IMG/VR virus record: IMGVR_UViG_3300044641_007081
Coordinates: 1 to 46,488 of that record
From: a virus
DNA length: 46,488 nt
Direction: 5' to 3' (one strand)
Shown: positions 22,500-37,412 of the stretch, one piece after another
Numbering within the stretch: position 1 is the first letter of the stretch
Layout of the letters: each line of letters begins with the position of its first letter
Made by a program: the position numbers and the translations under genes
The notes under the pieces: generated by a model
Told to the model about the DNA's origin: nothing
Database searches by the model: none
What the model saw: only the letters and a program-made list of their open reading frames with translations

Positions 22500-23048
22500 C
22501 TACGCACTTTTATTCTGTGTCTTGGCCCAAAACCGTTTGATAGTCCCTTGTGGCGCCCCAGTTAGACCTTTTTCGGGGGTGTGGTTGCCGTGTAAGAGTG
22601 CAGCTGCAGCTAAATACGCTTGCCGTGCTTCTTGTGCGGTTTCGTAATGCCCCAGGTAATACTGCACGCCGTTGATGCCGATCAAAGCTCTGTAGGTGCC
22701 GCTGGACGTTTTTGTGTAGCCTTTCACATTACTGCGGTTGCAGTGGTTACCGGATCGTGTGGTAGACCGTAAGTTCCACGGGCTGTTGTTGGTTCTGTTG
22801 CGGTCTATGTGGTCTATTTCTTTCGGTTCCGTACCCGTAACCCACTTCCATACAAGGCGATGGGCTGCGTACTTGTTGTTGCCGATCTCCCCAACGGTGT
22901 AACCGCTACTAAAACGGCATCCAAAAGGCTTACCGATGCGAGTTGAATTCCGGTGGGTGCGCCAGTGCAATGCCCCTGTGAATGGATCTAGGGAAAACAA
23001 CTCCCACAGCTCCTCGGCAGTAGGAAGGGGCTTGTATGCTTTTGCCAT
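22500..23048 (-). CDS. HNH homing endonuclease with AP2-like domain
   Basis: 182 residues. The HNH core is HRLVWKWVTGTEPKEIDHID with RNRTNNSPWNLRSTTRSGNH (residues about 63-102), containing the His-Asn-His metal and catalytic positions. A C-terminal segment KTSSGTYRALIGINGVQYYL with GHYETAQEARQAY is an AP2-like DNA-binding fold. These are self-spreading genes that cut at a recognised site. It lies alone between a terminator and the exonuclease gene, as expected for an intergenic insertion, and shows no sign of decay. Confidence 0.9.
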   Translation of the reverse strand: MAKAYKPLPTAEELWELFSLDPFTGALHWRTHRNSTRIGKPFGCRFSSGYTVGEIGNNKYAAHRLVWKWVTGTEPKEIDHIDRNRTNNSPWNLRSTTRSGNHCNRSNVKGYTKTSSGTYRALIGINGVQYYLGHYETAQEARQAYLAAAALLHGNHTPEKGLTGAPQGTIKRFWAKTQNKSA

Positions 23049-23887: not shown

Positions 23888-26326
23888 GTGTCGAGAGAGT
23901 CTCAAGAGTTGCTGGCCTTTGTGCGCCAGTTGCCGGTGGGCATGGCGTACACGCCTATCTATGCCAAGGGCTGCAAGCTGGTTTCCGGCACCGTCAGTAA
24001 GGGCAAGACGCCGCTGGAGCGGGCGCACCATGCCGATTTGAATCCGGCTGATGTGGCACTTCAGATCGAGCGGCGGTCTGACGTGTTTCGGGCGGTTGGC
24101 GTCTTTACCGGTGCTCGCAGCAAGGGCCTGGTGATCTTGGACGTGGATCGCAACCTGGCCAAGTTGAAGAGCAAGTGGGGGGACTCGCTGGACGGCGCTC
24201 CAATGGTCACCAGCACCAAGCCCAATGCGGCCAAGTATCTGTTTCGGGTGCCCGAGGAACTGTGGCCCGAGGTCAAAGGTTTTGGACTTTCGGATACCGG
24301 GGCGGGCTATGAGGTCCTGTGGGGCCGCCAGGGGCTCCTGTACGGCGCTTACCCGGGGTCTACGGATGGGAAGGGCGCAGAGGGCTTCTACGGCTTTGTA
24401 GGCGATCTGGAGGCCATTCCAGAGGCTCCAGCGTGGTTGCTGGCGGAGATGAAGGATCACGCCGGGAAAGAGGTGGCCGATGGCGGATTTATTAAGAATC
24501 GCAAAGCTCTGGATTTCTCAGATCGAGACCCCGGTGAGGTGGCTGAGATTATTCAGTCCGCGTTGCGGGTGATTCCAGGGCAGGGGGCTGGTAGCCGGGA
24601 CCACTGGATCAAGGTGGGCATGGCGATCCACTCGGAGCTGCCGACGGACATCGGCCTGACTTTGTGGGCCGCCTGGTCTTCGGATGACCCGGAGTACGCC
24701 GACGAGTGGTCCGATGCCAACCCCTGTGAAGAGGTCTGGAAGAGCTTCAAGAAGGGGCCTGTGACCCTTGGCACCCTCTTCTGGATGGCGGACCAGCAGA
24801 TGCCCGGGCGGCTGTGGTTGCCCGAGGACCTGCGGAAGGTGGTGGCGGAAGCCGAGACCGACCGGGTGCAGCGGTTCCGTAGTACCGGGCTTGGTCACGA
24901 GGAGATCGTTAAACGGGCCACCGCAGCCATGGCACTGGCCAATCCCTCAGAGGTGCAGCACAAACTCCATGAAATTGCGCTTGAAGCTGGTTATCGGGAC
25001 TCTGCGGCAGTTGTACGGCTCCTGATTGCGGACCAGGAATATCGCCGGGGTTCTCAAGGGGGCAGTCTTCAGGAAATTTTTGCGATGGCGGAGACACCTA
25101 TCGAATACCTGATTCCCGATTTGCTGCCTAAACCGGGCACCGTTTTGATTCACGGGCGGGGTGGCTGTGGCAAAACCATGGCCGTGATGACGCTTGCCAA
25201 GCACATTGCACGCGGAATCCCTTTTTCAGTGCGGGGAGCTGAAGTGCCGGTTCAACAGGGCAAGGTGCTGTGGCTGAACGGCGACCAAAACAGCCGGCGG
25301 ATGCGCAAGCAGTTCCAGGACTTGGAATTTACTGCCGCTGATCCTGTTGTAGTACAGAACAAGGTATCGATGCTCTGGTACCCCTGGTTTATCCAGCAGA
25401 TCGAGGAGCACCGTCCTTCGCTGGTGGTGTGGGACTCCGTGACGGCCTGTATGCGGGGCTGTGCGTACGACCAGAACAAAGCCGAATACGCCGAGCCGAT
25501 CTACTGGTACAGCGCGGAAAACGGTGAGAGTTTCCCAGCCACCACCATCGTCTTCATCCACCACGCTGCTAAAAGCGGCGACTTCAGGGGCACCTCCGCG
25601 CTTCAGGACGCCGTGGATGAGTCTTGGGCTATCCACCGCCCGGATAAGTCCGAGCTGGAGCGTGTGGGGGCTTCTGCGCGGCTGATCACCATCGGCAAGA
25701 GCCGAGAAGGTAACGAGGGCAAGCAGCTGGTATTGCGCCAGCGGGAAGACCTGACCTTCTCCCTCCAAGACCTTCCCGCTATGGACGGCGTGGACTCCGC
25801 CAGTCCTGCGTCGATCATCGACCGGGTGCTCCAGCGGTTGCGGACCAAGGGCGTGCCTATGTCCAAAACAGAGCTGAACGCCGACCCGCTGCTCGGTGGC
25901 AGCGTCAGTGCCATCTCCAAATCGCTCCAGCGCTTGGTTGATCGCGGTCTGGTGGTAGCTGAGGGAGAACGCTCCAGTAAGCGCTACTTAGCAGTAGTCG
26001 CGCGCAGGGGGGGAGGAGGTACATCCTGTCCAAAAGAAGAAAAACCTAGTACTGGTACTGGATCTGAGGAAAACGGCTGTCCCGATTTGTCCCAAGTTGT
26101 CCCAAGTTGTCCCGAACTTGACCCGGAACAGGAGGTTGGGACACCAAAAGGACAAGTTGGGACAAACCGGGACAAAATGGGACAGCCTGAAACGGCAGAT
26201 TCCTTGCGCAGCAACGGATCTGAGCGTTTGGGACATCAGGACAGCGCTATCTTCACGCGCGAGAGCGAGCGCACCCCTGACGAGATGCAGCGGCTAAAGG
26301 AGGCGGCTTCTACGGCCTGGGAGTAG
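23888..26326 (+). CDS. Primase-polymerase/helicase fusion (replication initiator)
   Basis: 812 residues from a GTG with AGGAG nine bases before it. Residues about 15-190 resemble an archaeo-eukaryotic prim-pol domain (VGVFTGARSKGLVILDVDRN, the DxD acidic pair). Residues about 205-300 resemble PriCT (DHWIKVGMAIHSE … KSFKKGPVTLGTLFWMA). Residues about 400-640 form a RepA/AAA-type helicase with Walker A HGRGGCGKT (near 423), SLVVWDSVTA as Walker B and IVFIHHAAKSGDFRGTSAL as sensor region. Residues about 650-710 look like a winged helix (PMSKTELNADPLLGGSVSAI then SKSLQRLVDRG). The last 100 residues are low-complexity and are encoded by the TGTCCC/GGGACA repeat arrays. The prim-pol motif that normally contains His reads NAAKYLFRVP, with Lys at that place. 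Probably opens the origin and primes replication. Confidence 0.88.
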   Translation: MSRESQELLAFVRQLPVGMAYTPIYAKGCKLVSGTVSKGKTPLERAHHADLNPADVALQIERRSDVFRAVGVFTGARSKGLVILDVDRNLAKLKSKWGDSLDGAPMVTSTKPNAAKYLFRVPEELWPEVKGFGLSDTGAGYEVLWGRQGLLYGAYPGSTDGKGAEGFYGFVGDLEAIPEAPAWLLAEMKDHAGKEVADGGFIKNRKALDFSDRDPGEVAEIIQSALRVIPGQGAGSRDHWIKVGMAIHSELPTDIGLTLWAAWSSDDPEYADEWSDANPCEEVWKSFKKGPVTLGTLFWMADQQMPGRLWLPEDLRKVVAEAETDRVQRFRSTGLGHEEIVKRATAAMALANPSEVQHKLHEIALEAGYRDSAAVVRLLIADQEYRRGSQGGSLQEIFAMAETPIEYLIPDLLPKPGTVLIHGRGGCGKTMAVMTLAKHIARGIPFSVRGAEVPVQQGKVLWLNGDQNSRRMRKQFQDLEFTAADPVVVQNKVSMLWYPWFIQQIEEHRPSLVVWDSVTACMRGCAYDQNKAEYAEPIYWYSAENGESFPATTIVFIHHAAKSGDFRGTSALQDAVDESWAIHRPDKSELERVGASARLITIGKSREGNEGKQLVLRQREDLTFSLQDLPAMDGVDSASPASIIDRVLQRLRTKGVPMSKTELNADPLLGGSVSAISKSLQRLVDRGLVVAEGERSSKRYLAVVARRGGGGTSCPKEEKPSTGTGSEENGCPDLSQVVPSCPELDPEQEVGTPKGQVGTNRDKMGQPETADSLRSNGSERLGHQDSAIFTRESERTPDEMQRLKEAASTAWE
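26078..26184. repeat. Iteron-like arrays: candidate replication origin
   Basis: TGTCCC occurs at 26078, 26088, 26098 and 26108, exactly every 10 bases. The inverse GGGACA occurs at 26138, 26159, 26169 and 26179, with a one-base variant AGGACA at 26149, again about every 10 bases; a further GGGACA lies at 26230. The two sets face each other across about 25 bases. Sites once per helical turn are the hallmark of initiator binding. They lie within the 3' end of the primase/helicase gene, as the lambda origin lies within gene O. An A-rich stretch precedes them (26034-26075). Confidence 0.65.
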
Positions 26327-28019: not shown

Positions 28020-28430
28020 ATGCTTACTCTTCTCTCTGACAAGGAAGTCCACCAGCTTCACAGCTACATGACTGAGCTGACCACCACGATGGAAAAGCTC
28101 ACCCGAGTCCTTGGTGGTGCTCAGACCGTTTCCTTTGACTTCGAGCGTCCCAGCATCCAGAAGCCCGTGCAAGTTTCTGACACTCCGGTGCAGAAGTCTC
28201 AACATAAGACTCGTGTGTCCAAAATCCATAGGGGCGGTAACGCATCGCTGTCGGTGCGCCAGGTGGCAGAGATCAAGCGGTTGCTTGGTGCTGGTAAGTC
28301 GGCTGCGTCGATTGCCAGGGATTTCAAGGTCCACTACAGCACCATCAACTCGATCAAGTGGGGCAAAACCTGGAAGGATGTGCAACCCTCCAACGCCAAG
28401 CCGCTGGAGATCGTGGAGATTCGTAAGTGA
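28020..28430 (+). CDS. Helix-turn-helix DNA-binding protein
   Basis: 136 residues, starting MLTLLSDKEVHQLHSYMTEL. The N-terminal half is a coiled coil; the C-terminal half LSVRQVAEIKRLLGAGKSAA, SIARDFKVHYSTINSIKWGK and TWKDV is a clear helix-turn-helix of the type found in HNH-associated and resolvase-like DNA-binding modules. Likely a phage transcription regulator. A TACACT promoter-like element lies 22 bases upstream. Its stop overlaps the dcd GTG (GTGA). Confidence 0.75.
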   Translation: MLTLLSDKEVHQLHSYMTELTTTMEKLTRVLGGAQTVSFDFERPSIQKPVQVSDTPVQKSQHKTRVSKIHRGGNASLSVRQVAEIKRLLGAGKSAASIARDFKVHYSTINSIKWGKTWKDVQPSNAKPLEIVEIRK

Positions 28431-28939
28431 TTCTCTGTGATACAGAGATCCGGGCCCTCTGTGAGGAGGGCCTTGTTGATCCCTACGACCCAGTACTGGT
28501 CAACCCGGCCAGTCTCGATGTGCGTCTCGGTGAGAATCTTCTTGTCGAGGTGGAACAGGACTCGCTTATGCGGCCTTTTTCTCTCAAGGGCTACACCGAG
28601 GACTGCCCTCTGCTGTTGCCGCCCGGCGAGTTCGTTCTCGCCGAAACCGTCGAAACCTTTTTCCTACCGTCATTCTTGGCGGCGCAGTTTGCCCTGAAAA
28701 GTTCCAGGGCTCGCTCAGGCATCGAGCACTTGATGGCTGGTTACTGCGATCCAGGCTGGCAAGGTTCCAAGCTCACACTGGAGCTGCAAAACGCTCGGGC
28801 TATTCACCCGGTTGCGCTTTGGCCTGGTATGCGCATCGGACAGATGGTGTTCCACGTCATGTCTGCACGGCCAGCGGAGGACTACTCAATCGTCGGACAC
28901 TACAACTTTGACCAACAAGTTACTGCATCCAAACTATGA
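28427..28939 (+). CDS. dcd: dCTP deaminase
   Basis: 170 residues from a GTG overlapping the previous stop. The enzyme converts dCTP to dUTP (bifunctional forms go to dUMP), feeding dTTP synthesis for phage DNA. Visible family marks are NPASLDVRLGENL (26-38), ALKSSRARSGIEHLMAGYCD (89-108), and DPGWQGSKLTLELQN with the likely catalytic Glu119, then LWPGMRIGQMVF. Shorter than the roughly 190-residue bacterial enzyme but with all core motifs. It sits in an operon with a DUF3310 protein, common in phage nucleotide modules. Confidence 0.9.
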   Translation: MILCDTEIRALCEEGLVDPYDPVLVNPASLDVRLGENLLVEVEQDSLMRPFSLKGYTEDCPLLLPPGEFVLAETVETFFLPSFLAAQFALKSSRARSGIEHLMAGYCDPGWQGSKLTLELQNARAIHPVALWPGMRIGQMVFHVMSARPAEDYSIVGHYNFDQQVTASKL

Positions 28940-31795: not shown

Positions 31796-32071
31796 ATGTC
31801 TGACTATTCTTTGCTATCCGATCTGACTACGGCGTACCAGCAGCAGTTGGGTGCTCTCGTGAAAAGGGAAAGCACCCGTGACCTGATGGATATGCACTTG
31901 CCCATCGACGTGCTCGACGTTATTGAGGAGCAGTTGCTGCCTGCACTGCAGGCTGTAGCTGATGCCCTGGACTGGGAACCCAGCGACGCTGACCTGCTTG
32001 GCGAACCGCCGCTGTCTTCAGCCGAGATGCTTACGGCTGCTTGGCAGCAGCACCTCTCTGCTCACAACTGA
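31796..32071 (+). CDS. Hypothetical helical protein (91 residues)
   Basis: Starts MSDYSLLSDLTTAYQQQLGA, acidic and helical (LPIDVLDVIEEQLLPALQAV). Preceded by CTGTAGTACAGT (31755-31766), an 11-base palindrome containing a TACAGT -10-like element, so transcription toward the polymerase gene may restart here. Function unknown. Confidence 0.6.
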   Translation: MSDYSLLSDLTTAYQQQLGALVKRESTRDLMDMHLPIDVLDVIEEQLLPALQAVADALDWEPSDADLLGEPPLSSAEMLTAAWQQHLSAHN

Positions 32072-32082
32072 ACCACACAACC

Positions 32083-33912
32083 ATGGAATTTCTACAGGGC
32101 ATCGAGCACCTGCACACCCTCAGCAACGCCACCACCATTGCTTTTGACTGTGAGACGACCGGGCTCCAGCCGGTTTTTGGTGGGTTGCGGCTGCTCCAGT
32201 TGGCAGCGTTGGATCGTACGCCAGTGGTGATCGACTGCTGGGACTTGGCTGACGATGACTGGATTGAGCTGGAGGAGTTCTTCAGCCGCAAGCGTTACTG
32301 GGTTGCCCATAACGCTGTGTTCGATCTCGGGTGGCTGCAGGAGCACGAGCTGTATCCCGAAGGGGATGTGCTGTGCACCATGCTGGCCAGTCGCATCCTG
32401 ACGAATGGGTTGCCTTACGCGAAACACGGCCTGCAGCATGTGGTGCATCGTTATTTGCGGCAGGACCTGTCCAAAGAGGAGCAGCGCAGCGACTGGAGCG
32501 GCGATCTGACTCCAGAGCAGTTGCTGTATGCCGCGAAGGACGTGCAGGTGCTGGTCGAGTTGGATGGGCCGATCAATGCTCGGATGGCGGAGGGGAATCT
32601 CCATCGGGCTTGGTTTCTGGAGTGCAAGGCGCTGCCGGCGATGGCGCAGCTTTGGAGAACCGGCCTGCCGTTTGATCGCACGTCACTAGAGGCGCTCTAT
32701 GCCGATTTGGCGAAGGATCATGAGCGTCTGGGCGAGGAGTTTCTGCTGGCACTGGACGCGGCTCTGCCCGAGGGGTCCAAGCTACCTAAGGATCCCGACG
32801 GCAGCATCAACACCAGGGCTAAGGCCACTGGCACCATTCGCGGTGGGGACAAGCGGGAAGCCGGTTTCAACCTGAATAGTCCCAAGCAATTGCTGCATGT
32901 CTTTACGACATTGCTAGGAGAAAAGCCGGTGGATGCCAATGGGAAGGCCAGCGCCAGTCGGCAAGCCTTGCGGGAGTACATCGGCGATCACAAGGTTGTG
33001 GCGGATTACTTGGCGTGGAAGCGCGTCGAGAAGCGTCGCCAGATGGTGGAGGCACTGCTGCGGTTTCTGGGGGACAGCGGTTTTATTCGTGCCAGCTACA
33101 TGCAACTTGGGGCGGATACAGGACGCATGTCGTGTATTAGTCCCAACCTGCAGCAAATTCCGAGAGATTCAAGGTTCCGGGAGTGCGTACAGGCTCCAGC
33201 CGGGTGGAAACTAGTAGTGGCGGATTATGCGCAGATGGAGCTTCGGCTTGCTGCAGCGGAAGCCGAGGACAGCCTGATGATTCGGGCTTTTCAAGATGGC
33301 ATGGATTTACACACACTCACTGCAATGCAGATTTATGGCGTCTCCGAAGATGAAGTTACAAAGGAACAGCGGCAAATTGCAAAATCTGCGAACTTCGGTC
33401 TGTTGTATGGATCGGGAGCCCGAGGATTACGCAACTATGCAGCAGGCATGGGGATACAAATGGATCTTGCTGAAGCTGCGGAAATCCGGGAAAAGTTCCA
33501 CGCTGCGTATAGCGGAATCAGCCGGTGGCAACGCAAGAATGCTCAGGCAGCTGATGCGGCTTCATGCAATGCCGCTATCCGCATTCGTCACTCCGGGTTG
33601 CGGCGGTTTCTTCCTGGAGACCACAACAAACTGACCACACGCTGCAATACACCGATCCAGGGGGCTGGTGCTGCTGTGCTTAAACGTACGCTGGGGATGT
33701 TGTGGCCTCTTCTTAAGGCTGATGGGGAGGAAATTGTCCGATTGGCTGGAGTGGTGCATGACGAAGTGATCCTTTTGGTAAGAGAGGAGCACGCGGACGT
33801 GTGGTCCAAGCAGTTGGCTGCCGTCATGCAGGACGCGGAGGCGCCTTGGCTGGGAGATGTTCCAGCGCTGGCGGAGGCACACGTTGGTGATTCGTGGCTG
33901 GAGGCGAAATGA
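32083..33912 (+). CDS. DNA polymerase, family A, with 3'-5' exonuclease
   Basis: 609 residues from the ATG at 32083. The exonuclease domain has motif I FDCETTG (Asp22, Glu24), II VAHNAVFDLGW and III YAAKDVQVLVEL, so proofreading residues are intact. The polymerase domain has motif A VVADYAQMELRLAA (near 380), motif B RQIAKSANFGLLYG (near 430) and motif C VHDEV (near 557). There is no 5'-3' exonuclease domain, as in other phage PolA enzymes. The residue matching E. coli Phe762 is Phe. It replicates the phage genome together with the primase/helicase and SSB. Overlaps the following gene by ATGA. Confidence 0.95.
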   Translation: MEFLQGIEHLHTLSNATTIAFDCETTGLQPVFGGLRLLQLAALDRTPVVIDCWDLADDDWIELEEFFSRKRYWVAHNAVFDLGWLQEHELYPEGDVLCTMLASRILTNGLPYAKHGLQHVVHRYLRQDLSKEEQRSDWSGDLTPEQLLYAAKDVQVLVELDGPINARMAEGNLHRAWFLECKALPAMAQLWRTGLPFDRTSLEALYADLAKDHERLGEEFLLALDAALPEGSKLPKDPDGSINTRAKATGTIRGGDKREAGFNLNSPKQLLHVFTTLLGEKPVDANGKASASRQALREYIGDHKVVADYLAWKRVEKRRQMVEALLRFLGDSGFIRASYMQLGADTGRMSCISPNLQQIPRDSRFRECVQAPAGWKLVVADYAQMELRLAAAEAEDSLMIRAFQDGMDLHTLTAMQIYGVSEDEVTKEQRQIAKSANFGLLYGSGARGLRNYAAGMGIQMDLAEAAEIREKFHAAYSGISRWQRKNAQAADAASCNAAIRIRHSGLRRFLPGDHNKLTTRCNTPIQGAGAAVLKRTLGMLWPLLKADGEEIVRLAGVVHDEVILLVREEHADVWSKQLAAVMQDAEAPWLGDVPALAEAHVGDSWLEAK

Positions 33913-37006: not shown

Positions 37007-37103
37007 AATGGGTACCTGTTTCTGTGTAAGTGTAGCTGTTGCAAGGGTTTTTGGGAGCAGGCGGCTGTTTTGCTTGCTACCGTTTGTACAGCTGCTACTC
37101 GAT

Positions 37104-37412
37104 GTGGATTACATCGACGAGCAACACGGTTTCTTAAGAAAAAGAGAAGCTAAGGCACGATTTAGGGAGCAAATCCTTAAGGGATGGGACTACAAATGTG
37201 CCTACTGTCGAGAAACACTTGGTAAGTCGGGCACACTCGATCACGTACGTCCCAAGGTCAGGGGTGGGGAAACTACCGTGACAAACCTTGTCGCCTGCTG
37301 CTTTTCCTGCAATACCAAGAAAAGTTCCAGTGATTGGGTGCTGTGGTTTAGGCAGCAGGATTTCTGGGAGCCCTACCTGGAAGACGCGATCAGGTGGTGG
37401 ACAAGTCAGTAG
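37104..37412 (+). CDS. HNH endonuclease inserted in the lysis module
   Basis: 102 residues from a GTG at 37104 ((M)DYIDEQHGFLRKREAKARF); the frame opens earlier at 37008 but that part lacks coding character. The core is YKCAYCRETLGKSGTLDHVR, PKVRGGETTVTNLVACCFSC and NTKKSSSDW: a zinc-binding CxxC pair on each side and an HNH-type Asp-His. It is on the strand opposite to all lysis genes, typical of a mobile endonuclease that landed between them. Its 3' end overlaps the convergent gene by 23 bases. Confidence 0.82.
   Translation: MDYIDEQHGFLRKREAKARFREQILKGWDYKCAYCRETLGKSGTLDHVRPKVRGGETTVTNLVACCFSCNTKKSSSDWVLWFRQQDFWEPYLEDAIRWWTSQ

Follow-up and report, generated by a model that had tools for sequence, protein, structure and literature searches.

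The initiator gene and the array in its 3' end

The window, meaning the whole 46,488-nucleotide stretch of IMG/VR record IMGVR_UViG_3300044641_007081, belongs to a siphovirus, with genes for terminase, portal, tail proteins, endolysin and a DNA polymerase A of its own. Identity of the portal to its counterparts in cyanophages KBS-S-2A, S-H1 and S-2L is about 36%. A tape-measure ORF continues past the left end of the record, and no terminal direct repeat of at least 15 bp was found at the record ends; the sequence is, therefore, possibly cut or circularly permuted, and the record may be incomplete. The early operon includes a dCTP deaminase-like gene (28427-28939; PF22769, E=4.5e-29), and two HNH endonuclease-like ORFs lie at 22500-23048 on the minus strand and 37008-37412 on the plus strand.

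The features of the putative replication initiator gene and of the repeats it carries are collected in Table 1. The original prediction, made from the sequence alone, had read this gene as encoding a prim-pol, a helicase and, just before the repeats, a winged helix; profile searches recover the first two as domains, and structure prediction alone yields the third. The helicase model matches the structures of RSF1010 RepA and DnaB. A Foldseek search with the predicted winged helix returns winged-helix proteins as top matches, with weak E-values (from 3e-3), and a sequence search of solved structures gave no match. Three activities of the type used at origins (primase, helicase and winged-helix binding) are predicted in one protein. 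Residues 705-792, encoded by the array, are predicted to be disordered (pLDDT about 30).

Table 1. Features of the initiator gene and repeat array, in window coordinates
Feature	Position	Strand	Remarks
Initiator gene, 812 aa	23888..26326	+	Prim-Pol, PriCT_2, RepA/DnaB-like helicase, winged helix, disordered tail with array, C-terminal helix
Prim-Pol domain, residues 34-183	23987..24436	+	PF09250, E=5.3e-7, exceeds gathering score
PriCT_2 domain, residues 222-301	24551..24790	+	PF08707, E=1e-17
AAA_25 helicase domain, residues 402-565	25091..25582	+	PF13481, E=5.7e-21
Predicted winged helix, residues 643-702, proposed repeat reader	25814..25993	+	AlphaFold2, pLDDT about 80
Predicted recognition helix, residues 673-685	25904..25942	+	codon 677 at 25916-25918
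Left boundary box TCGCG	25998..26002		mirror partner at 26258, within 2 bp
Outer left TGTCC core	26027..26031	+	absent from original prediction; mirror partner at 26231
Four TGTCCC repeats in 10-bp steps	26078..26113	+	starts 26078, 26088, 26098, 26108
Symmetry centre	26131..26131		best 200-bp gapless palindrome centre in record
Five inverted repeats	26138..26184	-	GGGACA at 26138, 26159, 26169, 26179; AGGACA (one mismatch) at 26149
Outer right GGGACA repeat	26230..26235	-
Additional GGACA core	26239..26243	-	absent from original prediction; without partner in symmetry
Right boundary box CGCGA	26258..26262
C-terminal helix, residues 797-811	26276..26320	+	AlphaFold2, pLDDT up to about 90

Short repeats at the 3' end of the primase-helicase gene make up the array, which is nearly palindromic over 265 bp. 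All 10 repeats that had been claimed lie where they were placed, with two extra TGTCC cores flanking them. Their opposite orientation and 10-bp phasing are likewise real, and the layout proves to be one of full mirror symmetry: the left cores at 26027, 26078, 26088, 26098 and 26108 mirror those at 26231, 26180, 26170, 26160 and 26150 exactly about position 26131. In a 200-bp gapless scan of the whole record, this centre scores 54 of 100 as a palindrome, compared with 44 for the next-best. Every copy of TGTCCCR in the 46.5-kb record (9/9) falls inside the array. The repeats use all three reading frames and both strands, and 20,000 synonymous recodings of the same peptide gave on average 1.8 TGTCCC/GGGACA copies and never more than 7, versus the 9 observed.

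Each outer 45-bp gap holds a second, partly palindromic element, for example CCAGTC-N3-GACTGG or CCAGTGATACCAATGG; in the window, these lie at about 26049-26072 and 26199-26224. Hairpins resembling ssi sites in the same gaps are only weakly above shuffles. In the rest of the window, TGTCCC is about six times rarer than expected (4 found, 24.5 expected). Avoidance of the phage's own repeat elsewhere was considered as a sign of titration and rejected, since the shortage of TGTCCC is common to all lineages, whatever their own repeat, and is therefore not specific.

Repeats and their layout among relatives

Searches of IMG/VR and genome contigs yielded 352 homologous loci, 258 of them distinct. 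At least four TGTCC cores occur in the corresponding place, counted from the end of the winged helix to 90 bp past the stop codon, in 252 of the 258 homologues. Within the final 420 nt of the gene, the commonest 7-mer reaches up to 9 copies, compared with at most 4 in other 420-nt slices of these genes; the density of the own 8-mer is 211-fold higher in the tail of the gene than in other sequence. Close relatives retain TGTCCC, and others carry TGTCCG, TGTCCA or TGTCCT, each with its own next bases, which are lineage-specific and mostly common to the copies within one genome. In the phage collection searched, the initiator has only distant relatives. No array like this one was found in S-CBS4; repeats were seen in other distant relatives.

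In the marine L113 clade, the array contains the stop codon, across which the layout 46-13-14-gap-13-13-46 is maintained. The stop-in-array clade includes L210, L223, L238, L227, L236, L222, L245, L247, L250 and L243, several of them on contigs of differing sizes and origins. Its proteins lack the C-terminal helix because the gene ends within the array. It had been asked whether the repeats stay while the peptide varies, and suggested that DNA rather than protein is under selection here. Both points are borne out: the mirrored layout of the marine clade spans the stop codon and the repeats occupy all three frames, so that the DNA, not the peptide, is what is conserved.

Mirror symmetry also recurs among relatives. 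In 51 clusters taken together, 85% of sites have a mirror partner, compared with 55% when orientations are shuffled. Tests that shuffle spacing are weaker than the orientation test and individually significant in 29% of clusters, and TGTCCG clusters fit mirror symmetry poorly. Layout distances recur, for example 45-16-10-26-10-16-45 or 45-26-35-27-45, with a variable central gap. Of 65 clusters, 52 have TCGCG as the left boundary box and 35 have CGCGA as the right one.

Repeat spelling and the winged helix

Protein difference at each alignment column was compared with repeat difference after helicase identity had been regressed out. Residue 677, which lies in the predicted recognition helix, is the top column (r 0.54 among 220 columns), with wing residues 698 and 697 next in that ranking. 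It is also top on cluster representatives, where its value of 0.40 among 227 columns exceeds all 2000 permutations. Helicase columns 487, 594 and 473 likewise pass the permutation on cluster representatives, which ignores relatedness, and the control is imperfect for that reason. Because the permutation p-values take no account of relatedness, tree-based pairs were added.

By cluster, R677 accompanies TGTCC-CA in 27 of 35, K677 accompanies TGTCC-C[C/G/T] in 11 of 11, and Q or T at this position accompanies TGTCC-A in 12 of 12. Independent pairs on the tree give median p values of 0.006 for R and 0.03 for K; the association of Q/T677 with TGTCC-A is not significant on the tree (median p 0.125). 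Among initiators with helicases at least 90% identical, residue 677 differs in 96% of 1180 pairs whose repeats have switched versus 12% of 796 pairs whose repeats are conserved, the pairs being non-independent. Residue 681 is D, E or N rather than Q in TGTCCG, TGTCAC or TGTCGC clusters; the cases are few, and this is no more than a lead. Taken as sequence covariation, the correspondence strongly suggests that the winged helix recognises the array, and this is the firmer part of the interpretation, ahead of the firing of an origin.

A probable origin within the initiator gene

The array is probably an initiator-binding site, in the 3' end of the initiator's own gene, that serves as the phage replication origin. 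This had been the central claim of the original prediction, and it stands in part. The conserved array and the covariation of its spelling with the winged helix favour it; base composition does not, and origin activity is itself an inference. A GC-skew check had been suggested, and its detrended extremes fall at 3.6 and 19.0 kb, not at 26 kb; skew is itself weak evidence in a phage of this type. Nor do AT, purine or keto skews over the whole record have their extremes there. The flanks of the array include no strongly AT-rich element: AT fractions in 60-bp windows around it peak near 0.5.

In the proposed mechanism, the predicted winged helix (residues 643-702) would bind the repeats, the step with strong covariation behind it. 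Conserved residues of its helix, such as K678 and R682, may contact the shared TGTCC core, and residue 677 and the wing would read the bases that follow. The mirror-image half-arrays, observed as a layout, would set initiators in opposite orientation, so that a pair of helicase rings pointing away from each other could be established. By domain identity and analogy, the RepA/DnaB-like helicase would then open the DNA, perhaps aided by hairpins of the inverted arms, and the fused Prim-Pol would prime for the phage DNA polymerase A (32041-33912).

A different account, in which a large hairpin or cruciform is selected and recognised by shape, as in a pRN1-type stem-loop origin, with the repeats following from stem pairing, appears unlikely. 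The inverted arms can pair into a large stem-loop. As single-stranded DNA, the window is much more stably folded than shuffled versions (z -7.4), and the spacers add pairing when the repeats are held fixed (mean z -2.25 in 20 genomes; with wider masking, mean z -1.48 in 65 genomes, 82% of them below the shuffled mean). Additionally, pRN1 requires a stem-loop 3' of a gene for Prim-Pol, helicase and winged helix. However, all copies within a genome, whichever way they point and whichever stem they lie in, tend to have a common spelling, which independent stems would not need, and that spelling follows the recognition helix; a hairpin may help without explaining this. Binding and hairpin may both be important.

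It is comparably improbable that the same protein binds the array for another task, such as autoregulation, transcription termination, partition or packaging. Covariation speaks to recognition by the initiator protein and is silent on its consequence, and hairpins at gene ends can also work in RNA. Against this, primase and helicase domains are part of the same protein as the reader, and the array has mirror symmetry. The window has no Rfam match, and a known RNA family at the array was discarded as a candidate accordingly. An autoregulatory or promoter operator is unlikely because the phage's own 8-mer is concentrated in the gene tail and its count upstream of the gene is not clearly raised (8 versus 4.7 expected). 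That the repeats arose as a side effect of a repetitive or low-complexity peptide is scarcely credible: they do sit in codons of a predicted disordered tail, yet frame and strand usage, the recoding trials and a marine-clade array with half its length beyond the stop codon all speak against it.

The proposed binding of the array by its own initiator for replication resembles, in several respects, systems already described. In the lambda-type origin of lambda and Stx phages, iterons lie inside gene O and are bound by that initiator (PMC7466680). Here too the iterons are inside the initiator's own gene (partly outside it in the marine clade), and binding by that initiator is suggested by covariation. 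Unlike in lambda, the repeats are 3' of the binding domain, mirror-symmetric and without an adjoining AT-rich tract. The initiator also includes the helicase and the primase and, with its Prim-Pol, PriCT_2, AAA_25 and winged-helix domains, is not a relative of lambda O. The plasmid pRN1 and related replicons, with phage BIP-1, also combine Prim-Pol, helicase and a C-terminal winged helix (here a predicted one) in a single protein (PMC4234260). In pRN1, inverted repeats that can fold into a large stem-loop likewise lie on the 3' side of the gene; that plasmid is described as being without iterons, and no specific binding was found there (PMC4234260). The present element, in contrast, is made of iterons and lies in coding sequence (half of it in the marine clade), and the helicase is RepA/DnaB-like (AAA_25) rather than SF3.

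Several short repeats of one sequence near an initiator gene are also a feature of iteron replicons. RSF1010 has the same three functions in RepC, which binds iterons, the RepA helicase and the RepB' primase with its ssi sites, but distributes them over three proteins with a separate origin, whereas here they would sit on one protein with an in-gene array. In the PLE satellites of Vibrio cholerae, the DNA-binding domain of RepA covaries with the ori, and matched pairs were exchangeable by experiment (PMC8263062). A predicted DNA-binding domain covaries with its proposed target in the present phages as well, as judged from sequence; the PLE system differs in its RepA_N initiator, separate noncoding origin, repeats of about 30 bp and lack of a fused primase-helicase. 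No description of an origin of this kind was found in the open-licence literature searched. The array is in-gene and mirror-symmetric and consists of iterons that a fused Prim-Pol/helicase initiator very probably reads, and its spelling varies together with the reading domain.

With the reader and its target next to each other in one gene, a single recombination event could replace both. Some genome pairs look like such swaps. L137 and L182 are 99% identical in Prim-Pol and 96% in the helicase, with only 67% identity in the winged helix and different repeats, a pattern such as a local swap would leave. Mosaicism is also seen elsewhere in the protein: the initiators of L007/L052, L041/L128 and L024/L345 have nearly identical Prim-Pol halves and helicase halves only 45-54% identical. 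As a tentative extension, winged helix and array might form an origin cassette that is retargeted as a unit and moves by recombination, yielding many co-circulating origin specificities, with a recognition code (residue 677 and the wing) that is partly readable. Such diversity would perhaps be driven by satellites, origin-directed nucleases or competing phages.

If this interpretation is correct, the origins of a large group of uncultured aquatic phages could be located from sequence alone, and dozens of natural initiator-repeat pairs would make a protein-DNA recognition code directly testable. The side-by-side placement of reader and target would, in addition, let origin specificity shift while the two remain matched.
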